The position numbers were made by a program, and so were the translations under genes. This document shows positions 2,613 to 22,877 of a stretch of 23,954 nucleotides of DNA, in pieces. Location of the stretch: positions 1-23,954 of IMG/VR virus record IMGVR_UViG_3300030688_000119, one strand, 5' to 3'. Origin of the DNA: a virus. How positions within the stretch are numbered: the first letter of the stretch is position 1; each line of letters opens with the position of its first letter. The notes under the pieces are model-generated. The model did not search any database, was not told where the DNA came from, and saw nothing but the letters and a program-made list of their open reading frames with translations.

Positions 2613-2625
2613 GGAGAGAGGTAGA

Positions 2626-3156
2626 ATGCCTGTAAGTAAACTATCGCACGAAGATTTGAGAAAACTTGCCATAAGCTGGCTAAAAACACGCACAGTTGCT
2701 GTCGAGAGGGGTGGCCCTCCCCGTGGAGGGCGTTGTTCTATAGTTGCTTCGGAGTTGGTAACATCTGCTGACGACACGCCTGATGCAATTGGGTGGGACC
2801 CTTTGGGGCGTTCTATTCTCATAGAATGCAAGTCCAATCGAGCTGACTTCCATCAAGACGGTTGCAAAACTAGAAGTGCTCTAGGGTGCGGAATGGGAAA
2901 CCAGAGGTACTATCTGGCCCCCTTTGACATCATACCCAAAGACAAGATTCCGAAGGACTGGGGACTGCTGGAAACTACGGATTCCGGGAGTATTTGGTGT
3001 ACTGTTCGGGCTCCTATCAGGGAGATCGACGCACACGAGCAGTGCAATGAAAAATTGATTCTTATGTCTCTAATTCGAAGAATAAACAAAAGAGAATTTC
3101 TCATCATCCAGCCAGAAGAGATGGATTCTCTTTTGGTGCCAACCCAAGGGGCGTAG
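2626..3156 (+). CDS. PD-(D/E)XK nuclease-like protein
   Basis: A 176-residue protein with a small PD-(D/E)XK-like core: Glu43, Pro52-Asp53 (TPDAIGW), then beta-strand ILIECK with Glu67 and Lys69, followed by SNRADF and a Gly-rich GCGMGNQRYYLAP stretch. This order matches restriction-endonuclease-fold proteins of phages, including MmcB-like and Holliday-junction-nuclease-like families. DNA cleavage is likely but the substrate is unknown. The ATG at 2626 follows GGAGAGAGG. The gene follows one of the few non-coding gaps and may open a transcription unit. It ends with an ordinary TAG. Confidence 0.65.
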   Translation: MPVSKLSHEDLRKLAISWLKTRTVAVERGGPPRGGRCSIVASELVTSADDTPDAIGWDPLGRSILIECKSNRADFHQDGCKTRSALGCGMGNQRYYLAPFDIIPKDKIPKDWGLLETTDSGSIWCTVRAPIREIDAHEQCNEKLILMSLIRRINKREFLIIQPEEMDSLLVPTQGA

Positions 3157-3167
3157 AGAGGAGGAAA

Positions 3168-4355
3168 ATGGCAGACAGTAAGGGGAAGTACCAGCCGTGG
3201 GGCCACGAAGAGTTCATGGCAGATGTGCGGGTCCGCCGAATGACCCCCACAGCGCTTAAAACCTACATGATGCTGTTGCACGAAGCTTTTGTCTGCGAAG
3301 TCCGACCGAACCTCCCAGACGACGAAGAAGAACTAGAGCTAATGGCATACTGTACCGACCACGAAGAGTGGCTATCTGTCCGCGACACGGTCTTGGGGAT
3401 GTTCACCCGAGAGTTGATAGACGGTGTTCAGGTTCTGACAAGAAAGAGACTCCAAGATGATTGGAATAAAATCCAAGAAATCCGCGAAGCACGGTCAGAA
3501 GCCGGAAAAGAGGGAGCCAAAGCCCGGTGGAATGGCAAAAATAGCAAACCTATGGCAAATGATGGCAACCCGATAGCAAAAAATAGCAAGGAAGTAAGTA
3601 AGGAAGTAAAGAAAGAAAGAGAAGAGAAGGAAGAAAGAAATTCCGATTCTCTCTCTGATTTTGAAAATCCAGATAACGGACAAGGAGAAGGTATGAACTT
3701 GAAAGCGTTCAAGCAGGAAATGACGAACATCGGAATCAAGCGGTCCATGAAGATTACTGGGTACCCCGATACTTGGGAAAATCTGAAGCTACTGAGCAAC
3801 GCCCACGGATCGCAAGCCGTCCTAAATGACTTCGATTCCTTCCTGTCAGAGGGAGATGACTACCCGAAGGGTGCTCTTTCCGCATACAACCAAGTAGCCT
3901 CCGACCGACTGTCTTCAAATACACCTTCTCTAGCCTCCGCCAAAGACCCGGAGGTAGTTTCCCTAGTCCGGGAGCTTTCCTACGCGTCTGGTGGCCTTGT
4001 ATGCTTCTTAGACAAGCAACGGGCACGGTTAGCAGAAGTGCTGAAAGAGTTCACCGCCGAGGAAATCAAGTCGGCGTTCAAAACCTGGGTCGAAACGCAG
4101 GACCTGAATGATACCAAAAACCTGTCGTACGCCCCTGGAAAGTTTGTCCAGATAGCGGACAACCTTGCGTACTCCGCTAGGAAGCAGAAGCAGGAAGCTG
4201 AAAAAGCCAAGACCCTGAGAGACGCGACCGCCCGGAGACTCCAAGAAGAAGCCGAGATTGACCGGCAAGCGCGGGAGAAGATGAAGCAGGACGAGTCCGA
4301 AATATTTGATCCTCTCGCGGAATTGTTGTCCGAAACTGACAAAGCTGTGGTATAA
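3168..4355 (+). CDS. DUF1376-type replication initiator, probably lambda O-like
   Basis: A 395-residue protein. Residues 1-120 resemble DUF1376/YdaU-type phage replication proteins: PWGHEEF at the start, a helical MTPTALKTYMMLLHEAF segment, LPDDEEEL, and the RSEAGKEGAKARWNGK linker. Residues 121-165 are a low-complexity Asn/Lys/Glu region encoded by phased heptamer repeats and a purine tract. Residues 190-395 are helical and highly charged at the end, possibly the helicase-loading part. In this family the protein binds the origin and recruits the helicase; the helicase here is the product of 6853-8730. The ATG has AGAGGAGG just upstream. The gene holds two 15-bp dispersed sites (3667, 4146) and an extended -10 element close to its stop. 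Confidence 0.65.
   Translation: MADSKGKYQPWGHEEFMADVRVRRMTPTALKTYMMLLHEAFVCEVRPNLPDDEEELELMAYCTDHEEWLSVRDTVLGMFTRELIDGVQVLTRKRLQDDWNKIQEIREARSEAGKEGAKARWNGKNSKPMANDGNPIAKNSKEVSKEVKKEREEKEERNSDSLSDFENPDNGQGEGMNLKAFKQEMTNIGIKRSMKITGYPDTWENLKLLSNAHGSQAVLNDFDSFLSEGDDYPKGALSAYNQVASDRLSSNTPSLASAKDPEVVSLVRELSYASGGLVCFLDKQRARLAEVLKEFTAEEIKSAFKTWVETQDLNDTKNLSYAPGKFVQIADNLAYSARKQKQEAEKAKTLRDATARRLQEEAEIDRQAREKMKQDESEIFDPLAELLSETDKAVV
3532..3589 (+). repeat. six helically phased AT(A/G)GCAA repeats; candidate origin iterons
   Basis: The heptamer AT(A/G)GCAA starts at 3532, 3541, 3552, 3562, 3573 and 3583, at intervals of 9, 11, 10, 11 and 10 bases, about one helical turn each. It falls in two codon frames (AAT-GGC-AA and ATG-GCA-A types), so amino-acid repetition alone does not explain it. 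Its position inside an initiator-type gene is the lambda O/ori arrangement. An origin function is inferred. Confidence 0.6.
3588..3641 (+). other. purine-only tract downstream of the iterons
   Basis: About 54 bases almost entirely A and G on the + strand, dominated by GGAAG, GTAA and GAAA words, begin where the heptamer repeats end. The tract encodes a Lys/Glu-rich linker. It could act as a DNA-unwinding element, or be only low-complexity coding sequence. Confidence 0.5.
3667..3681 (+). promoter_or_regulatory. 15-bp dispersed site 4 (13/15)
   Basis: Reads ATCCAGATAACGGAC, about 25 bases downstream of the purine tract of the candidate origin. It encodes Asn-Pro-Asp-Asn-Gly-Gln, the same frame as the site at 12445. 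Confidence 0.6.
4146..4160 (+). promoter_or_regulatory. 15-bp dispersed site 5 (13/15)
   Basis: Reads GTCCAGATAGCGGAC with both GTCC and GGAC arms intact, inside the initiator gene (Val-Gln-Ile-Ala-Asp). Confidence 0.65.
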
Positions 4356-4356
4356 T
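4348..4356 (+). promoter_or_regulatory. candidate extended -10 element
   Basis: TGG-TATAAT matches a sigma-70 extended -10 and spans the end of the initiator gene, 26 bases before the RNA ligase ATG. A TTGTCC lies upstream at 4326-4331 but with a long 19-base spacer. The longer word TGTGGTAYAAT recurs at 10060-10070. Confidence 0.4.
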
Positions 4357-4381
4357 GGTTTTGTGCTCAAAGGAGGACTAG

Positions 4382-6629: not shown

Positions 6630-6853
6630 TCAGCGAATTCAGCTTGAGAAATAACGAGCCGCTGCCTGATGTCGTCCTGTTTGCCGGGTCGTTTCTCGAA
6701 CGAAGTGGCGAACTGTTCGGTCACACGTTTCACACCCACGACGCTGTTGATAAAGCGGCAGAACTTCTCACGATAATGGCAGAGGAAGACACCGACTGGG
6801 TAGAATTTCGTCGGCAACTCAGGTCATATGATGTTCAAGAGGATTGGACCTAG
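6623..6853 (+). CDS. hypothetical small protein
   Basis: A 76-residue protein with no recognised family. I chose ATG 6623 (AGAGGAGAAG upstream) rather than an earlier in-frame start inside the previous gene. A His-rich HTFHTHDAVDKAAELL stretch and the acidic C-terminus are the only visible features. Its TAG stop (6851-6853) overlaps the GTG start of the primase-helicase. Confidence 0.65.
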   Translation: MLISEFSLRNNEPLPDVVLFAGSFLERSGELFGHTFHTHDAVDKAAELLTIMAEEDTDWVEFRRQLRSYDVQEDWT

Positions 6854-8730
6854 TGGAAAACCTGGATGAGCTTAAATCGAACCCGGCAGTTCTTAAAATC
6901 TATGGGCAGTACGTTCGTGGGTTGAAGAAGGCTGGGAATCTATACACGGGTTCGTGCCCCTTGCACCAAGACTCACACCCCTCCTTTTCTGTCTATCCGG
7001 ATATGAGGTGGACGTGCTTCTCGGGTGCGGGCTGCGGGTCGGGCAACATTTTTCAGCTCCTAGAACGGATCGATAAAATCAGCTTCCAAGAGGCTGTAGA
7101 GAAGGTGAAAAAAGAGATAGGACAAACATCTTCGTGGGAAGAAGCGAAGACAAAGGTAGAAGCGACTTTCAAGCCTGTCGCGGAATCCAAGGTTTATAAA
7201 GTTATTGATTTGAGCAGGTGGGGCGCACTAGAAAAGGCTTTGGCAAACTCACCAGAGGCTGTCCATTATCTGGACTCTGAGCGCGGGATTACACTCGCAA
7301 CCGCGCAGCAGCTAAGACTTGGATTTGCACAAAATATTGGAACTCTGTCTGGACAGGATGGTGCGGACATTGCCGACAAGGGATGGATTGCCTTTCCTTC
7401 AATCGAAGGGGATAAGGTTATTGGTGTCAAGTACAGATCAATCGTCCGGAAAAAACCAGGAGGGTTCAGCCGACAGCCGGGGATGTCTACGGCTTTGTTC
7501 AATACCGAGGCAATCGATTGCTTCGAACCGGTATACGTCTGTGAGGGTGAGTTCGATTGCGCCGCCCTCACACAAATTGGACTTTGTACTGTATCCGTTC
7601 CTTCGGCGGGAACAAAGCTAACGCCCAGTATGAAGGATCAGTTGATGAAGGCATCCTATGTAGTGCTGGCGGGAGATACCGACGCGACCGGTTCCGGGTA
7701 TATGAGCAAATTATGGAAGGAGTTGGGGGAGAAGACCTACCTGCTAACTTGGCCGGAGGGGATGAAGGACGGCAACCAGACGTTCCTCGAAGCCTGCGGA
7801 CGAGACCTTTCAAAATTCAAGAATCTCGTAGAGGAGCTGACGAGCAAGGCTAAGTCGCAGCCGATGCCCTCTGTATACTCGCTACAGGAAACTATGCGGT
7901 CGGGGGATGATGCGGTTCTTTCTGACCACCCAGATAGAATGCGCGCCCCGTGGCACGACGTAGACACAATGGTGAATATCATGCCTGGAGACGTGGTCGG
8001 AATCAATGCCACGAATAGTGGTATGGGCAAGAGCACTTTTGTGTTACAATGGACTTTGTATAATGCTAGGAAGTACGGACGGTCATTTGTCAACTTCCAA
8101 GCCGAAATGCGACCTGCGGAGATTGCTACAATGGTGACAGCGCAGGTTCTCAGGAAAGACCGAAACTTTCTGACCGGCTCCGATAAGAAACAGGCCGCGA
8201 ATGAGTTGGAAGGTGTGGAGTACTACGTGGGGTTCGACCCCGTCCTGAATGATATCAACGCGGTCCTTGATCTACTTGAGGCTGCTATTAAACGTTTGTC
8301 ACCATATGGGGTCGTTCTGGATCACTTCCACCACCTGACCACGGGGATGAACAACGAGACTCAGGTTCAAACAGCAGCGATGACCCGGATCAAGCAGATA
8401 GCCGAGACCTACAAGGTCGTGTTCTTTAACGTGGGTCAGCCTCGGAAGGCAACGCAGCAGACAAAGGGTAAGCAGATTCACCTGACCGATGCAAAAGGCT
8501 CCGGAGCGTGGGCAGATGCCTCCAACTCAGTGGTTACCATCCACAGGGAGCTTAATAAGGCAGATGATCCTACGATGACTAAGGGCGTATACGAGGATAA
8601 AACGCTGGTGAAGCTGCTGAAGGGGCGATCAATGGGAACTGGAAACTCAGCTTGCTATCTTACCTCGTTTGGTGAGTTCGCAAGCTTCGAGCAAATTTCG
8701 GATCGGTACGAAGAGGGGGAAGCAGAATGA
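6853..8730 (+). CDS. bifunctional primase-helicase (T7 gp4-like)
   Basis: About 625 residues with three modules. A CHC2-type zinc finger lies at about 35-61 (CPLH, then WTC and GCGSGN). A TOPRIM primase core lies at about 228-280 (CEGEFD catalytic Glu; AGDTD acidic pair). A DnaB/RecA-like helicase starts near 365, with Walker A around 386-394 (NSGMGKST) and Walker B VVLDH near 490, followed by a GSGAWADASN segment. It makes RNA primers and unwinds the phage fork. I prefer GTG 6853 (AAGAGG about ten bases upstream, stop-start overlap) over TTG 6844. An exact 15-bp dispersed site lies at 7261-7275. The clamp gene follows one gene later, forming a replication cluster. Confidence 0.92.
   Translation: MENLDELKSNPAVLKIYGQYVRGLKKAGNLYTGSCPLHQDSHPSFSVYPDMRWTCFSGAGCGSGNIFQLLERIDKISFQEAVEKVKKEIGQTSSWEEAKTKVEATFKPVAESKVYKVIDLSRWGALEKALANSPEAVHYLDSERGITLATAQQLRLGFAQNIGTLSGQDGADIADKGWIAFPSIEGDKVIGVKYRSIVRKKPGGFSRQPGMSTALFNTEAIDCFEPVYVCEGEFDCAALTQIGLCTVSVPSAGTKLTPSMKDQLMKASYVVLAGDTDATGSGYMSKLWKELGEKTYLLTWPEGMKDGNQTFLEACGRDLSKFKNLVEELTSKAKSQPMPSVYSLQETMRSGDDAVLSDHPDRMRAPWHDVDTMVNIMPGDVVGINATNSGMGKSTFVLQWTLYNARKYGRSFVNFQAEMRPAEIATMVTAQVLRKDRNFLTGSDKKQAANELEGVEYYVGFDPVLNDINAVLDLLEAAIKRLSPYGVVLDHFHHLTTGMNNETQVQTAAMTRIKQIAETYKVVFFNVGQPRKATQQTKGKQIHLTDAKGSGAWADASNSVVTIHRELNKADDPTMTKGVYEDKTLVKLLKGRSMGTGNSACYLTSFGEFASFEQISDRYEEGEAE
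7261..7275 (-). promoter_or_regulatory. 15-bp dispersed site 7 (exact, reverse orientation)
   Basis: GTCCATTATCTGGAC on the + strand is the exact reverse complement of the consensus. It lies inside the primase-helicase gene and encodes Val-His-Tyr-Leu-Asp. Confidence 0.9.
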
Positions 8731-9248
8731 TGAAAGTTTGCTCGAAGTGTGGAATGGGGTATGTTATTGGAAACATAGCTGTTATTTCCGATAAAGCTAA
8801 TACAATAAAAAGTAATGGAAGCTGGAAAGAACATTTACTCGTAGCAAATTGGATCGATTCAGCTCTCGACCCTCTTAGAAAAGATAGTTTCCAAGACGAA
8901 AATACACTATCAACAAGAGACGGAAAAATAACTCTTCTTCGAAAAGCAAGAAAACGGGCAAAAGATAAAAATTTGGATTTTGATCTAGAAATTTCTGACC
9001 TACACGTACCCGTTTCGTGTCCTGTTTTGGGTATTCCGCTGTCGCCAGGGGTGGGTAAATCCCACGATGGGTCCCCTTCTATCGACCGAATTGATCCTAC
9101 CAAAGGATACACGAAGAGAAATACGGCTGTGATCTCTCACAGAGCTAACGCCATCAAAAGTTATGGAACCGCAGAGGAGCATCGGAAAATAGCGGATTGG
9201 TTAAAAACTATGCTTTTGTCGAGCCAAAAGGAGGATGTATGCTTATAA
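8727..9248 (+). CDS. HNH-like endonuclease with duplicated C-terminal module (chimera)
   Basis: A 173-residue protein. The C-terminal part (about 95-165) has the CPVLGIPL, PSIDRIDPTKGY and N-x-AVIS-x2-AN-x-IKS words of a phage HNH-like nuclease family. Residues 11-50 repeat the last 40 residues of that domain: I count 18 of 40 identical with residues 127-166, including AVIS, AN, IKS and EH. The first ten residues (MMKVCSKCGM) look like the zinc-ribbon start of another such protein. The gene appears to be a fusion of paralogue fragments, and its first half looks more A+T-rich than its neighbours. It sits between the helicase and clamp genes, a typical homing-endonuclease location. The start overlaps the helicase stop (ATGATG). 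Confidence 0.7.
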   Translation: MMKVCSKCGMGYVIGNIAVISDKANTIKSNGSWKEHLLVANWIDSALDPLRKDSFQDENTLSTRDGKITLLRKARKRAKDKNLDFDLEISDLHVPVSCPVLGIPLSPGVGKSHDGSPSIDRIDPTKGYTKRNTAVISHRANAIKSYGTAEEHRKIADWLKTMLLSSQKEDVCL

Positions 9249-10324
9249 ATGCGAGCGAAATCAAACGGTTTTTGAAGCCTCTATCGCCAGTCCGTTCTGA
9301 GTCTTACCAGATCGGGGAACACGGAATTTCGGCTCAGGATAGTGATATCTGGGCCGTCTCTGAAAGTCAATTATCCGGACTAGGAGGCTGCTTCTCCGTG
9401 AATGGAAAGAAGTTGAGTCAGGTAGTCGGGCGGATGTCGGGCCAGATCGAGATCGTAAAAGAAGAGAAGCTGCTGTCTCTAAAATCCGCGCGCGCGAAGA
9501 TCGAACTGGAGGTTCAGGACATCAAACCGATCAAGATTCCCGAGGCCCCAGCCAAGACCTTGGAACTGAACGCGGACGACTTCAAGAAAGCTCTATCAGT
9601 AGCTGTAGCGTCCGCGTCCCCTAACAAGGCTTCGGCGTTCGGAGGGGTAGTCCTGCTTCAAAGTCTTCCAATGGGTCTCGAAGAAGAGGCCCCACGAGGG
9701 TACCGGATTGTAGGCACGGACGCGAACATGCTTACCGTTGCTAAGGTCTCAGGATCAGGACTGTTTGAGTTCAAGATTACCCTCAACCTGCCAGCGGCAT
9801 CAGTTGTCCAGATAATGGATGGAAGTTCCATCTTGCTCGGAGAATCCAATAATCACGTTTGGGCTAAGTCCGGCGGAATCAGAGTGTTCGCTTCTAAACC
9901 CACACAAGTGTATCCCAACTTTGACCCGTTGTTGGCCATTCAACCCAAGCTGAAGTTCGGTTTCAAGACCCAGGAGTGGGTGTCCGCGATCCGGACCGTA
10001 GAAACTTTAATTGACGAAGCTGTAGATCAAGGAGGAATTGATTTACATTTCGCTGAAGGTGTGGTACAATATAGAAATGTTGGGGTAGGGTCAACTGCTT
10101 CGGACGAAGCGCCGTACGACCAGATCGAACCCGACCCGCTGTTCGATGGACCGGTTACCGTCTCGAATCTGAGGGTTAAGGCCAAGTATCTGTCCGCATT
10201 CTTGGCAAAAGCGGGGGAAGAGGCTACTTTGGGTCTAGTAGACAAGAATAAGCCGGTGCGACTGGAGTCCGGGAACGTTACTACTTTGATTATGCCGATG
10301 CTTGGTAAGAAGGAGTCTAAGTGA
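9239..10324 (+). CDS. DNA polymerase sliding clamp (beta-clamp/DnaN-like)
   Basis: A 361-residue protein, close to the length of bacterial beta clamps. The repeating clamp-fold pattern is visible, with TLELNADDFKKAL opening domain 2 and the family's characteristic C-terminus: a P-V-R-L-E-S-G strand followed by a P-M motif near the end. It should form a ring on DNA and tether the replicative polymerase. ATG 9239 is preceded by AAAAGGAGG at ideal spacing; a longer frame starting at 9197 lies inside the HNH-like gene and is rejected. It contains two dispersed sites (9366, 9806) and an internal promoter-like sequence. A phage-encoded clamp suggests that the phage brings its own polymerase, outside this window. 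Confidence 0.85.
   Translation: MLINASEIKRFLKPLSPVRSESYQIGEHGISAQDSDIWAVSESQLSGLGGCFSVNGKKLSQVVGRMSGQIEIVKEEKLLSLKSARAKIELEVQDIKPIKIPEAPAKTLELNADDFKKALSVAVASASPNKASAFGGVVLLQSLPMGLEEEAPRGYRIVGTDANMLTVAKVSGSGLFEFKITLNLPAASVVQIMDGSSILLGESNNHVWAKSGGIRVFASKPTQVYPNFDPLLAIQPKLKFGFKTQEWVSAIRTVETLIDEAVDQGGIDLHFAEGVVQYRNVGVGSTASDEAPYDQIEPDPLFDGPVTVSNLRVKAKYLSAFLAKAGEEATLGLVDKNKPVRLESGNVTTLIMPMLGKKESK
9366..9380 (-). promoter_or_regulatory. 15-bp dispersed site 8 (13/15, reverse orientation)
   Basis: GTCAATTATCCGGAC on the + strand, inside the clamp gene (Ser-Gln-Leu-Ser-Gly frame). It is the weakest copy in arm symmetry. Confidence 0.5.
9806..9820 (+). promoter_or_regulatory. 15-bp dispersed site 9 (14/15)
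   Basis: GTCCAGATAATGGAT inside the clamp gene, encoding Val-Gln-Ile-Met-Asp. Confidence 0.8.
10042..10070 (+). promoter_or_regulatory. candidate internal promoter
   Basis: TTTACA, 17 bases, then TACAAT with an extended -10 (TGG before TACAAT). It lies within the clamp gene and could serve the downstream regulatory genes. This is sequence resemblance only. Confidence 0.35.
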
Positions 10325-11641: not shown

Positions 11642-12163
11642 ATGGACATTAACGTTCTTAAGTACAAACCGGTAATCGAGCGAGTGTTATCCCGGCTTAA
11701 AATCCCCGCAGATCAGAGGGATGACATGCGCCAGGAGTGTTATGTAGCTTTGCTCGAAAAGAAGCATCACGTACAAAAGGGAATAGATCGGGATCGAGAA
11801 GATACCTATGTATCTAGAATTTGTCGAAGCCGGATAACAGATTTGTGGAAAACAGGACAGCACCCACAAAGGACCAAGGAAGACCCAGGTCCGAGGTTAG
11901 TGTCGCTTTCTTTGCCCAAGATCATGCACCAAGTTGAGAAGATACCGCAATTCAAGGCGGAGGTTACCGACGAAGAACTGTACGCAGCGATTCTTAGTCT
12001 ACCTCTGGACGAGTATCGGGCCGTATATAACGTTTATGTAGATGGAAAATCACAACGAGAGACTGCGGGAGATTTTGGAATCAGCCGCCGACAGGTGTCC
12101 AACCTGATTGAACGTGGGATCAAAAACCTGAAGAAGTATTTTGAGGTCGAAGATGGGGATTAG
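11642..12163 (+). CDS. sigma-70-like (ECF-type) RNA polymerase sigma factor
   Basis: A 173-residue protein with a region-2-like N-terminal segment (DQRDDMRQECYVALLEK, then YVSRICRSRITDLWK) and a clear region-4 HTH at about 110-165: LSLPLDEYRAVYNVYVDGKSQRETAGDFGISRRQVSNLIERGIKN in overall pattern. The size fits small alternative sigma factors. It may redirect host RNA polymerase to late phage promoters. AAGGAA lies before ATG 11642. A pure HTH regulator is the alternative reading if region 2 is not functional. Confidence 0.72.
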   Translation: MDINVLKYKPVIERVLSRLKIPADQRDDMRQECYVALLEKKHHVQKGIDRDREDTYVSRICRSRITDLWKTGQHPQRTKEDPGPRLVSLSLPKIMHQVEKIPQFKAEVTDEELYAAILSLPLDEYRAVYNVYVDGKSQRETAGDFGISRRQVSNLIERGIKNLKKYFEVEDGD

Positions 12164-17956: not shown

Positions 17957-18871
17957 GTGTACGATATCTATTTGATTACGAATCAGATCAACGAGAAGAT
18001 TTATGTAGGACAGACAAAGAACACCATACACATTCGCTGGCTCCAGCATCTATGTTCTTGCAGTGGAGGAGACGAAAGACCTCTTTATCGGGCTATGCGC
18101 AAATATGGGGTGGAAAATTTCACTGTTTCTTGTCTTGAGACTGGCCTGAAGACGGTTGAACAAGCCGACGAAGCTGAAAGTCTATGGATAACCAGACTTG
18201 ATTCACTTATCACTAAAAACGGGTACAATTTGACTACGGGCGGGTATTCCGGAAGACATGTCGAGGGTTCTAGAAGAAGAGCGGAGATATCAATACCAAA
18301 AGAGGAGGTCGCCAGAAGGTACGACGAAGGTTCTTCCGTCTGCCAACTGGCGGAAGAGTTGGGTGTTTATTATTCGACTATAATCCGATGGTTGAAAGAA
18401 ACGGGACGAAAAGTTCGTACAAATGATAACATAATGCGCAAGGAACGACTTATATCAGAAGGTAAGGAAGCTTTAGTTGACCCCAAGGGAGAAGATTTGG
18501 TACGTTTGTATGAATCTGGGTTAAGCATATCCGATCTATCCAAAATCTTTGAGATGGCAAGAAGGAACATACGGAAGCGTCTAGTCAAGGAAAACTTGGT
18601 TTTACGGGAGTCCGCTTCCGTGTGGGTAGGCGATCTAAAAGTTTGTTGTGTTTGTCATCTTCCCAAATCTTTAGAAGAAATGGTTCCTTCCAAGCACAAG
18701 AAATGCGGGTATACGAGCTATTGTAAGCCTTGTTGGAAGAATTATGTGAATGATAGGAACCGTAAAATTAGAGCTACTGAGACGGAGTCTGCTGCGGCAC
18801 TAGTCTCAAGAGAGTCTGAAACACCGGGTCTTTCATCCTCTCCTCTGGAGTCATGTCTTTCTTTGCCTTAG
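17957..18871 (+). CDS. GIY-YIG homing-type endonuclease with HTH and zinc domains
   Basis: A 304-residue protein. The GIY-YIG core is at 3-95: I-Y-L-I-T-N, K-I-Y-V-G-Q-T, Arg27, His31, an acidic E-Q-A-D-E-A-E stretch (70-74) and N-G-Y-N-L-T-T-G-G. Two HTH-like segments follow (about 125-147 and 188-210), then a cysteine-rich module (C-C-V-C at 230-233, Cys250, Cys256, Cys259). This layout is that of free-standing homing endonucleases. GTG 17957 has AGGAG six bases upstream. It sits alone between converging operons, and its last 98 bases lie antisense to the end of the leftward gene. The downstream part of the protein (after about 270) may be readthrough of foreign sequence. Confidence 0.8.
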   Translation: MYDIYLITNQINEKIYVGQTKNTIHIRWLQHLCSCSGGDERPLYRAMRKYGVENFTVSCLETGLKTVEQADEAESLWITRLDSLITKNGYNLTTGGYSGRHVEGSRRRAEISIPKEEVARRYDEGSSVCQLAEELGVYYSTIIRWLKETGRKVRTNDNIMRKERLISEGKEALVDPKGEDLVRLYESGLSISDLSKIFEMARRNIRKRLVKENLVLRESASVWVGDLKVCCVCHLPKSLEEMVPSKHKKCGYTSYCKPCWKNYVNDRNRKIRATETESAAALVSRESETPGLSSSPLESCLSLP

Positions 18872-21800
18872 TCAGATATTTTCTCTGAACTTGGAGAGTC
18901 AAAGGAACCAAGGCCGCTTTCTCTGATATATTTGCCTGATCTAGAAGTTTTAGATATTCTGCGGCGGGCAAACGAGAAGCGCGAGTATACAAAGAGGCCA
19001 TCGAGGAATCCATTCCTTTAGTTTTGGAAAGATTCTGCTGTATCTTCTTCAACTCCGATTCCTTCAGTTGGTCCGTTTCGTAGGTTAGCTTCATTAGATC
19101 AGGGTAGGTCATATCTCCCGTCCGGACGCGGTCTTCCATATCCATAACCAATCTGTGTCTCTGCTGTTGACTGGGGTCCACAACTCCATCTTCGTTGTGA
19201 TTTGCCGCCAACTCTGCTGCTAATTTCTGGGCTGGTGTTTGGTAAGTTCTTGCTGTACCGCCTATCGCCTTCCAAACCTGACCAGCGTTTCCTACTTCAG
19301 GGCCGGTGCCAGAGACTGCCTGACCAATTGATTGTACCGGGATTGGCATCATTTGCCTAAATGCGTCGGCCCACAAATCTTCGGGAGCTAGTTTTCTCCC
19401 GAAATTATCGCGACCGGATAGAACCTCTTGTCCTAGATGAATAGTAGGAGACAACCTTCCTTTGACAAAGTCTACAGGTGAGCCCGCAGCATGAAGAAGG
19501 TCCGTTGGAAGTACTCGAATAGACCACAGAGTTTCTTTTCCATCCTTTGACTTAGTTGCCAGAGAAAACGGAGCTTCGTAGTGGGCGTTGCCGGTTGTTA
19601 CCGTGTTAAGAATACGAGCTATAGCCCACATAGAACCGGCCATGATAGCTACCTGCCTGCGACCAATAGCTCCTTCGTCCTTGTTGAATAATCTAGCCCC
19701 ACTACGAAGCTCGGATTCGAGCCAGTCCGGCGCAAGAAGAACTGCACGAGCTGCGTTCTGCGACGAGGCGGCTCTGCCCATGGCTCGCCAATTAATTCCA
19801 CCAAACGATTCGTTAGAATGCAAAGCAGCCGACTTAGCGACTCTGTCTACAGACCAGTCTGGATACTTAGCCCGATAGTCGTCAAACAGCTTTTCTGCTG
19901 CTGTTGCTTTTATGGCGGGCAAGAATCTCTTGAAGATGAAGTCCGTTTGGTACTGCATTGCGTTGGCTAGGATAGGTCCCACTACTGGAACTTTACGCAT
20001 GAGGCTGTGCTCTCCTGAAGAAGAAACACCCTCGGAGAATTCCTGCTGGCCTCGATAGTCAGTTCCCGTGGTGAAACCGTTCTCGACCATCTTCCTTATT
20101 TTAGTAGGAGAGTTGGGGTCGGTTGGGTCTATCTTAGCTCCGTCGATGATATCAGGACCGTGGAGAGTGAAAGGATTAACTCCAGTTAAAACGCCTCTTA
20201 GTGCGAGTTGTACTAAGTGGAATGGAGATAGAGAAAGCAGCGTTTCTTTTAGCTTTGTCCCTACTCCGAGCAGAGCTTTCCCTACTGGGTTTTTTACCCC
20301 CTCATCTAGTCCCAAACGATTTTTCAAATACTCGGCAAATTCGGGGTGTGCAAGAATCTCTGATCGAACCAAAATATTGTGCCCAGCCGAATCATTAGTT
20401 ACAAAATTCCACCCTTTCAGGGCACTATTGTTCAGATTTACGTAATCTTGTGGGGACCACGCATAAACCTTCTTCTGGGCGTCGTTAAACTCCTTGAGTC
20501 CTGAGAAGTCCTTATTAGCCGCCATCGCCTTCAAATACATGATGTCGGTCGAGAGCTTGTTGTTTCCAACTTCGTCGTACTGAGCTTCTTTTCTGGCGGC
20601 TTGTTCTTCCAGTTTTTCGATAGCTGCTTGGATATTGGATGGACGGACACAAGGGGTCAGGTCCTGGATAGTACCCTCGTCCAAGAATCTCTGAAGATCT
20701 CCCGATTTGTCCAGTTGCTGGACTACTGAATCTGCAATGTTGATTTTACGAACCCGGTTTGGATCAATGAAGGTCTTGGGATCTTCCCCGTTTTGTCCGG
20801 ACACAACTTGGCCTTGTCCTGAGAGTACTACCGCAGGACGACCATCTGATCCACGAGTAAAGGAGTCTCGGAGAGTATCAATTAGCTGCTTGTTGGCTGC
20901 TGCCTTGATGAGTTCTCCGCGACCTTTGGCCGTCACAGACACGGGGTCAAAATCAATTGGCTTTGGGGATTTCAAAAGAGCAGTTAGGTGCGAATCATAC
21001 ACACGCTGACGAGCCATCGTAACATTTGTAGCGAACTTGCCTTGCTTGGCTTCGGATGCGATAACCTTTCCCAAAGGATTTAGGTCCTTGTAGGTACGGG
21101 TCATGTAGTCTTGGACAAATGAGTGCAGTAGATCGTTAGACGACCCGATTTGGAGGTTGCGAGCCTGCTCGTCTCTCAGAGCTTTGGCTACTTCAAGTTC
21201 TCGGTCAGATAGTTCTCCGTTGGCCACCCTCTTGAGGGAGTCTAGGACAGTGGCTTTATAGCTATCGGGGAGTGCTTTGAAGTTGTTGTCGGCGATGAGT
21301 TGGGGTAGATTGTCGGGAAGTCCATTATTCGGACTAGTTTTGTTTTCCCCCTCAGTTCCTCCAGACTCTCGTGTCGATTCTGCCAATACTCCTGTATTTC
21401 CAGCTTTGTCAGGATTCTCAATTCTATCCTCTTTTCCATCGGCTTCTGCTAAAGCATTATACCACTGCGCCGCTTTAGCTCGGTCTCCACCAGTAACCAC
21501 CTGATGAAATACAGAAGCGAGTTCAAGTGCTTTCTGTGCTTTTACATCGGCATTTGGGCCAAACACCTTTTCCATGAACCCCGGGGTTTCGTGCCCGAGA
21601 ATTTTCCGAACACGGTTGTCCAGATTGATGGATTCTTGCTCTCCGACCGCGTGTTGAACTTCACGTTCCTTGTTGGCCCGGTCCATCGCCAAGAACTCGT
21701 CGTTGGGCCGGAACTTGTCAGTCTCAAGAAGAGGCTTGAACAGTTCTCCCGCTGCGTGGAGAGCGTGAGGCGTCCCGAGGATTCCCAAAGCTCCGCCCGC

Positions 21801-22877
21801 AAAGGCTTCCGTTCCGTATTCCCAAGCTTTGTCGGTATCCCCTTCTTTGAGGGCGTCGAGGAAGCGAGGAGACATCGCCGCCGCTGTCTCAAACTGCTGG
21901 AGGGTAAATCCGGCATTCAAAACAGCGTTAGCTGTCTTGGCCATTCGAGCGGTAGATGCGACAGGCAAATCAGGAATTGTGTGGCGCAGGACTTGGAATG
22001 CGCCGTTTTCTAGCATGTTCTTGGATAGCAGGTCTTGCTCGGTCAGACCGTTGTCGTAAAGGGCCTTTTGCGCACGTTTCCAAACGTCCACATCTGCTCC
22101 TGTTTCGCGCACGGCGTCTTCGACTGGATGGAACCCGGCTTTGGCTTCGGCTACTGTATCTCCGGCTTTACCCAGAGCTTCAAGTTCTTCGGGGGAGAAT
22201 TTTCCAGACTCTTTCAGGGCGTTTTGGATCGCAGGTGTTCCAAACTCTGCGTCCCGGTTTAGCGGAGACACGAGTTTTCTAGCCCTGTCTAGAAGTCCTA
22301 TATCGTGGCCTCCTGCTTCCAGAGCTTGTTGGATGGCTGGTTCTACTGACTTGGCTTCCTTGAGAGCGCCTAGAGCCGCTTGTGATCCCTTAACCGCATC
22401 TGCGATTTCGGTGGCGGAGAGTCCGGCTTCTTTGAGCGCTGTCATGCCGGACGATTCGATCAGACCTCCCGAGCCAAAAGTTGCCGCCGTCAGGGCGAGC
22501 GACAGAGGACTTGTAAACCCGCTGGCAATGTGTTCTACGCCGCGCTCTAGTCCGTTTGCGCCGGGGCGATCTTCGGGAAGGCCGAACAAACTCTCACTTA
22601 AAGGCGTATTTAGCCACGACCATCCTCTCTCTATCCACCCTTTATTCGGGTCTTGGTAGTCGAATTTTGGGGCCGAAGACTCGGCAGAAGAGGTTGGCTT
22701 GGGTCCACCAAATAGGTCGCTTAGGTCGGCTCCGGACGGAGAGGGAGAAGCGGCGACGGGAACAGAAGCACGAGACGACGAACCCCCAAACAGATCGCTC
22801 AGGTCGGGCGCACTGGTGTTGGGGGTCGAAGGGGTGTGGCCACCGAAAAGATCACTCAAATCAGGGGTTGTAGGCAT
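18774..22877 (-). CDS. large virion-associated polyvalent protein
   Basis: A 1367-residue protein. The first 58 residues carry three copies of D-L-S-D-L-F-G-G (6-13, 25-32, 51-58) in Pro/Ser-rich linkers; their codons differ almost only at silent positions. The rest is Ala-rich and helical, with a Gln-rich central region, and a C-terminal part (from about 900: V-G-P-I-L-A-N-A-M-Q-Y-Q-T-D-F-I-F, N-W-R-A-M-G-R-A-A, S-M-W-A-I-A-R-I-L) like phage large polyvalent or internal virion proteins ejected with DNA. The ATG follows AAAAGGAATATGA on its strand. It contains dispersed site 17, and its stop region overlaps the GIY-YIG gene. Confidence 0.6.
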   Translation of the reverse strand: MPTTPDLSDLFGGHTPSTPNTSAPDLSDLFGGSSSRASVPVAASPSPSGADLSDLFGGPKPTSSAESSAPKFDYQDPNKGWIERGWSWLNTPLSESLFGLPEDRPGANGLERGVEHIASGFTSPLSLALTAATFGSGGLIESSGMTALKEAGLSATEIADAVKGSQAALGALKEAKSVEPAIQQALEAGGHDIGLLDRARKLVSPLNRDAEFGTPAIQNALKESGKFSPEELEALGKAGDTVAEAKAGFHPVEDAVRETGADVDVWKRAQKALYDNGLTEQDLLSKNMLENGAFQVLRHTIPDLPVASTARMAKTANAVLNAGFTLQQFETAAAMSPRFLDALKEGDTDKAWEYGTEAFAGGALGILGTPHALHAAGELFKPLLETDKFRPNDEFLAMDRANKEREVQHAVGEQESINLDNRVRKILGHETPGFMEKVFGPNADVKAQKALELASVFHQVVTGGDRAKAAQWYNALAEADGKEDRIENPDKAGNTGVLAESTRESGGTEGENKTSPNNGLPDNLPQLIADNNFKALPDSYKATVLDSLKRVANGELSDRELEVAKALRDEQARNLQIGSSNDLLHSFVQDYMTRTYKDLNPLGKVIASEAKQGKFATNVTMARQRVYDSHLTALLKSPKPIDFDPVSVTAKGRGELIKAAANKQLIDTLRDSFTRGSDGRPAVVLSGQGQVVSGQNGEDPKTFIDPNRVRKINIADSVVQQLDKSGDLQRFLDEGTIQDLTPCVRPSNIQAAIEKLEEQAARKEAQYDEVGNNKLSTDIMYLKAMAANKDFSGLKEFNDAQKKVYAWSPQDYVNLNNSALKGWNFVTNDSAGHNILVRSEILAHPEFAEYLKNRLGLDEGVKNPVGKALLGVGTKLKETLLSLSPFHLVQLALRGVLTGVNPFTLHGPDIIDGAKIDPTDPNSPTKIRKMVENGFTTGTDYRGQQEFSEGVSSSGEHSLMRKVPVVGPILANAMQYQTDFIFKRFLPAIKATAAEKLFDDYRAKYPDWSVDRVAKSAALHSNESFGGINWRAMGRAASSQNAARAVLLAPDWLESELRSGARLFNKDEGAIGRRQVAIMAGSMWAIARILNTVTTGNAHYEAPFSLATKSKDGKETLWSIRVLPTDLLHAAGSPVDFVKGRLSPTIHLGQEVLSGRDNFGRKLAPEDLWADAFRQMMPIPVQSIGQAVSGTGPEVGNAGQVWKAIGGTARTYQTPAQKLAAELAANHNEDGVVDPSQQQRHRLVMDMEDRVRTGDMTYPDLMKLTYETDQLKESELKKIQQNLSKTKGMDSSMASLYTRASRLPAAEYLKLLDQANISEKAALVPLTLQVQRKYLTKAKKDMTPEERMKDPVFQTLLRLVPQQTPSQ
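21320..21334 (-). promoter_or_regulatory. 15-bp dispersed site 17 (13/15), in the leftward operon
   Basis: GTCCATTATTCGGAC on the + strand, identical to the site at 16852. It reads in the direction of transcription of the leftward gene and encodes Ser-Pro-Asn-Asn-Gly. Confidence 0.6.
22704..22862 (-). repeat. three DLSDLFGG peptide repeats in the large virion protein
   Basis: The copies lie at 22839-22862, 22782-22805 and 22704-22727. Their codons differ mostly at third positions while all eight residues are unchanged, which points to selection for the peptide rather than recent duplication. Confidence 0.85.

Follow-up and report, generated by a model that had tools for sequence, protein, structure and literature searches.

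We found that the gene at positions 3168-4355 of the window, the 23,954-nucleotide stretch of viral DNA analysed here, very probably encodes a replication initiator that carries its own origin of replication in the DNA of its linker. The sequence is best read, with good confidence, as an intragenic iteron origin of the kind known from Rep2009 and lambda O, in a protein that is not itself a member of the lambda O family. The gene, its DNA-binding domain and the six candidate iterons are as follows.

3168..4355, + strand: initiator gene, 395 amino acids, with a DNA-binding domain, a disordered linker and a helical C-terminal domain (open reading frame, PHROG, AlphaFold)
3189..3533, + strand: N-terminal DNA-binding domain, residues 8-122, predicted to be winged-helix-like (AlphaFold, fold matches)
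3532..3538, + strand: iteron 1, ATGGCAA, exact word match
3541..3547, + strand: iteron 2, ATAGCAA, exact word match
3552..3558, + strand: iteron 3, ATGGCAA, exact word match
3562..3568, + strand: iteron 4, ATGGCAA, exact word match
3573..3579, + strand: iteron 5, ATAGCAA, exact word match
3583..3589, + strand: iteron 6, ATAGCAA, exact word match

The product of this gene matches PHROG 9327, annotated as "primosomal protein" (E 2.6e-8, residues 8-163). Residues 8-122 were modelled confidently by AlphaFold, with pLDDT 80-94 for most blocks in the full-length model, and the long last helix predicted for this domain ends in AGKEGAKARW, directly followed by the heptamer-encoded linker, which is predicted to be disordered. 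When the domain model was compared with predicted viral structures, the best match (E 1.3e-4) was named DUF1376, as were six of the seven matches at E <= 1e-3, the seventh being nameless, and the model thus points to a DUF1376 fold. The original prediction had called the protein DUF1376-type, which holds for its predicted structure but not for Pfam, since a Pfam search of the 395 residues returned nothing significant, with DUF1376 absent even at E 10; the DnaD-type C-terminal domain (PF07261/Phg_2220_C) was also absent. Fold matches of the domain in the PDB were mostly winged-helix proteins together with some plasmid initiators, none of them significant, and a PDB sequence search gave no informative match, the hit at E 0.001 being a hydrogenase subunit aligned to part of the C-terminal region only. 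No relatives of the protein were found among named phages, a genome search with the DNA-binding domain gave no match, and neither did Rfam and tRNA scans. Direct repeats lie downstream of the DNA-binding domain within the gene, as in intragenic origins of the replisome-organizer type.

The six heptamers, at 3532, 3541, 3552, 3562, 3573 and 3583, all match ATRGCAA exactly. Their start-to-start distances of 9, 11, 10, 11 and 10 bp (mean 10.2) track the helix and not the codon, so that they fall in two frames (codon phases 1, 1, 0, 1, 0, 1) and encode the stretch NGK NSK P MAN DGN P IAK NSK; the positions and spacing given for them in the original prediction proved exact. ATRGCAA occurs 12 times in the whole window against 3.95 expected, and six of the 12 occurrences lie in the linker array. 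When the 23-residue stretch was resampled with synonymous codons, at most four heptamers arose and none of 20,000 trials gave six, and codon permutation likewise reached a maximum of four. When 7-mers repeated at 9-12 bp were sought de novo, with one mismatch allowed, this chain of six was the sole cluster in the window, and in 20 Markov surrogates of the window no phased chain exceeded three. The lag-10/11 score of the linker was not significant against synonymous shuffles because the spacers vary, and the valid tests of phasing for this array are the synonymous count and the phased 7-mer scan. It is close to certain that the heptamers were selected as DNA, and they are very likely the iterons of an origin bound by the initiator.

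Comparable arrays were frequently observed in other phages. Three phased words were present in at least 120 contigs of the collection scanned and, among the matches listed, many were initiators in which the array came just after an AGxxGAxxRW motif, in three frames and in steps of 10-11 bp. The 45 array-associated proteins, comprising that of the window, that of its sibling phage L002 and 43 from these contigs, included 19 with DUF6291, seven with DUF1376 and three with Lin1244_N, as well as matches to replisome-organizer or primosomal (initiator) families of PHROG. Four words at 10-11 bp were found in 32 viral contigs, compared with 6 for a scrambled word, and by our own count about 20 of the 32 lay inside long initiator-like reading frames, compared with 0 of the 6. 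The occurrence of ATRGCAA in all three reading frames across distant phages indicates that the DNA, not the protein, has been kept. Relatives that retained the linker amino acids and lost the heptamers had been named beforehand as the observation that would speak against an origin; the opposite was seen, with heptamers kept while amino acids and frames change. A universal use of ATRGCAA in these initiator families is ruled out by counts of relatives carrying any NTRGCAA on the coding strand of the linker (13 of 71 actinobacterial-type and 17 of 51 Bacillota-type) and by DUF1376 loci sampled without bias, only a few of which (n = 9) carry ATRGCAA.

Two further patterns were noted in the course of these searches. 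Exact 10-bp-phased ATRGCAA arrays also occur outside long reading frames in bacterial genomes (loci L285-L358), for example in Collinsella (L285, L302, L304) and Planktothricoides (L331). In L401 (Gordonia phage Catfish) and L403 (CheeseTouch), 11-bp repeats centred on GTCGCTA lie within the part of the gene coding for the DNA-binding domain and not in the linker.

The sibling L002, the sole close relative found, shares many flanking stretches with the window at 80-94% DNA identity, and the C-terminal region is almost unchanged (94% over 3932-4365). What has been exchanged between the two is the DNA-binding domain with its linker and the preceding gene (2626-3156), with limits at about 2615-3657 in the window and 2962-3456 in L002, and identity resumes at about 3657. 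The linker of L002 contains the reverse word, TTGCCA, three times exactly 10 bp apart with different encoded amino acids, and on the 3' side of these comes a 5-nt-periodic AGAGC block. The possibility that L002 carries an unrelated iteron is ruled out by this reverse word at 10-bp spacing. The comparison suggests that a single exchangeable cassette comprises the DNA-binding domain, the iterons and the block, and that it precedes a C-terminal domain that may be started separately, so that binding domain and origin would move together.

The following features lie at the junction of the exchanged and shared parts.

3669..3687, + strand: dispersed leader CCAGATAACGGACAAGGAG with a Shine-Dalgarno motif (repeat copies)
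3693..4355, + strand: in-frame internal start Met176 and C-terminal domain, 220 amino acids (Shine-Dalgarno motif and ATG; sibling identity)

The original prediction had placed a 15-bp site after the purine tract without giving its sequence, and we equate it with CCAGATAACGGACAA at 3669-3683. The site is present, but it is part of the 19-nt leader CCAGATAAYGGACRAGGAG and is therefore not origin-specific. Copies of this leader stand at five places in the window, always on the coding strand (3669, 5331, 12447, 16000 and a weaker one at 894), and at seven in G001, the sibling record behind L002; most are located a few nucleotides 5' of an ATG or GTG, and the site was accordingly rejected as an origin element. 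It may be a phage-wide translation leader or a module boundary sequence, and the copy at 3669-3687 sits where the sibling-shared part begins, just past the exchanged block. Since the leader precedes an in-frame ATG at 3693 with ideal Shine-Dalgarno spacing, translation may also begin here and yield the C-terminal domain as a separate product of 220 amino acids from Met176. Elsewhere in the window, a phage protein with a sigma-70 region 4 (11642-12163) may read phage-specific promoters, and a 1367-residue protein (18774-22877, - strand) has no PHROG match.

The second element of the putative origin follows the heptamers immediately.

3590..3641, + strand: purine-rich tandem block of AGTA, AAGA and AAGAG units of 4-5 nt, proposed unwinding element (purine run, periodicity, low stability)

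Purines make up 51 of the 56 bases over 3586-3641, and the longest stretch without a pyrimidine measures 33 nt (3608-3640), the next longest in the window being 20. The purine-rich tract originally predicted is therefore real, but its purine-only length is 33 nt and not 54. The block has a significant periodicity of 4 nt, and also of 8 nt, with a lag-4 score of 0.80 against 0.56 in synonymous shuffles, and of all 80-bp stretches in the 24 kb only two are less stable than the one beginning at 3595, as would suit an easily melted element adjoining the repeats. It is plausible, and slightly more likely than not, that the block is the opening element of the origin.

In array-bearing initiator genes, the iterons were mostly followed directly by a short tandem block, with units such as AGTGTT, CCCGAA, GAGACA, GACTCA, TCTGAA, GTCAAC, CCCGA and AGTGT. 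Brevibacterium phage Rousseau, for example, has ATRGCAA words together with a 6-nt GAGACA block. So that the word itself would not drive the selection, members of two initiator families were collected on the basis of the DNA-binding domain alone. Linkers with a 5-nt period exceeding that of synonymous shuffles numbered 45 of 51 in the Bacillota type and 44 of 65 in the actinobacterial type, compared with 1/51 and 3/65 in the DNA-binding-domain control, and lags 7, 8 and 13/14 were at background. The 11-bp signal was found in 32/51 Bacillota-type linkers and was rarer in the actinobacterial type (13/65). In all 28 Bacillota-type genes with both signals, the 11-bp repeats were located upstream of the 5-nt block. 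The pentamer is AGGTT-like in the Bacillota type and CCCGA-like in the actinobacterial type; the block of the window, being mainly 4-nt, is a variant of this 5-nt theme and not an exact match. Neither 5 nor 11 is divisible by 3, which makes a cause at the protein level unlikely.

These results bear on the explanation that slippage has simply lengthened a low-complexity protein linker and that the repeats have no other meaning, which we regard as extremely unlikely. The linker is indeed predicted to be disordered, some relatives have dipeptide-repeat linkers, and steps of 33 bp or its multiples could propagate 11-bp units with the frame intact. However, none of the periods (4, 5, 10 and 11) is divisible by 3 and they exceed the level in synonymous shuffles; the heptamers persist where the spacers vary and the frame shifts; and the sibling has the word on the other strand with different amino acids. 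The original prediction had itself raised partial linker expansion as a reservation; in relatives, frames and amino acids vary and the phased words stay.

An exonuclease and an RNA ligase are encoded nearby, and the gene is surrounded by replication genes, among them the following two.

6844..8730, + strand: primase-helicase with CHC2 zinc finger, Toprim and DnaB C-terminal domains (Pfam; PHROG 239, E 1.7e-60)
9197..10324, + strand: DNA polymerase processivity factor (sliding clamp), same replication module (PHROG 947, E 1.8e-19)

In the proposed mechanism, several N-terminal domains would occupy adjacent heptamers along a single face of the helix, in the way lambda O binds its iterons, the strained block next to them (3590-3670) would melt, and the helical C-terminal domain would bring the primase-helicase onto the opened strand. 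The phage's own enzyme at 6844-8730 is the probable helicase to be loaded.

The heptamers could instead be an operator or incompatibility site through which the initiator feeds back on its expression or copy number, with replication starting elsewhere. This is unlikely, although an intragenic location suits autoregulation, an internal start 3' of the repeats would allow an independent short product, and another origin could lie outside the window, which seems to be part of a larger genome, so that further origins are possible. An operator does not need the adjoining low-stability tandem block, nor the two-part layout seen at the mapped Tuc2009 origin, both of which an origin needs. Replication might also start for the most part at another place, by a recombination-dependent route, for instance, or one primed by transcription as in T7, leaving the array as a relic or secondary origin. 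T7 gp4 is among the distant relatives of the primase-helicase, and the GC-skew minimum originally expected at the origin was not seen, the cumulative skew rising steadily through 3.5 kb with no turn; GC skew, though, need not mark the origin of a lytic phage. The array looks maintained and not decaying, with six exact heptamers between variable spacers, and the sibling has replaced the block with another complete one, which makes such a route very unlikely. The placement of an origin inside the initiator gene is supported by the phased words kept in relatives, the cassette swap, the low-stability tract and the Tuc2009 layout.

A broader interpretation is put forward tentatively. The two-part linker could be a general phage origin code, in which helically phased iterons, often ATRGCAA, are followed at once on the downstream side by a strand-asymmetric tandem block with a 4-6-nt unit, for specific recognition of a single strand. 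Such a code might, though this is doubtful, cover the initiators of many tailed phages, with DUF1376-, DUF6291-, Lin1244- and replisome-organizer-type domains. Its block would possibly serve the initiator or helicase loading, as a counterpart of the DnaA-trios and DnaD recognition element, and dipeptide-repeat linkers (NVNVNV, PEPEPE, TETETE, RLGKDRLGK, RPDPTRPDP) could, on the same uncertain footing, be by-products of the DNA code. If this were true, the initiator gene by itself would reveal the replication origin in very many uncultured phages, and overprinted origin DNA would account for the dipeptide-repeat linkers. The short-period element also provides a testable statement on origin opening and helicase loading, which to our knowledge are well understood for only a few phages.

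Intragenic iteron origins as such are known. A search of the open-licence literature found no description of the origins of DUF1376-type initiators, the shared word or the short-period block. The closest layout with a mapped origin, which lies inside the gene, is that of Rep2009 (Tuc2009 ORF16), a member of the Bacillota-type family whose entry is annotated "contains origin of replication". Rep2009 and TP901-1 ORF13 bind direct repeats in their own genes, and these repeats serve as origins (PMC8965321). The Tuc2009 rep gene has 11-bp repeats of the TTGGCAACCAA type and then AGGNN pentamers, and r1t ORF11 has the same layout; both resemble the window in the order of N-terminal domain, phased repeats and tandem block in the linker. 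They differ from it in the family of the N-terminal domain, in a 5-nt AG-led and not mainly 4-nt block, and in the iteron word, which is TTGGCAACCAA/ATGACAACCAA or TGGAACC where the window has ATRGCAA. In TP901-1 both the 5-nt and the 11-bp signal are absent, though its origin lies within the gene.

In lambda, and in Stx phages, iterons in the middle of the O gene are followed by an easily melted AT-rich tract (PMC7466680). The window shares this layout of iterons in the initiator gene with a low-stability tract after them, which is the respect in which the "lambda-like" label of the original prediction stands. The family does not agree: there is no lambda O domain (Phage_rep_O) by sequence, the structural match is weak (rank 24, E 0.033), and the lambda-type iterons (TCCCTCAAAACGAGGGA-like) are longer and unrelated, whereas the window has 7-bp words at 9-11 bp. 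We know of no short-period tandem block at ori-lambda.

Members of the DUF1376 (PF07120), DUF6291 (PF19808) and Lin1244_N (PF14297) initiators carry ATRGCAA arrays after the domain, as in the window; the window protein is below Pfam detection, and other repeat words prevail among the sampled members of related families. Plasmid initiator domains were among the non-significant PDB fold matches (E 0.5-1.2), including 4pql, 4pt7, 4pta and 5kbj, which we take to be RepA_N plasmid initiators. RepA_N plasmids with iterons inside rep are known, but they are plasmids and not phages, and their fold match to the window is not significant. The BstA/aba self-immunity element was considered as a relative and dropped.

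In the oriC of Bacillus, DnaA-trios with a 3-nt period, and the DnaD recognition element opposite them, adjoin the DnaA boxes, and this strand-asymmetric element of bacterial oriC serves both opening and helicase loading (PMC10201434). It is, by position only, the closest known analogue of the tandem block, with a period of 3 where the phage blocks have 4-6.
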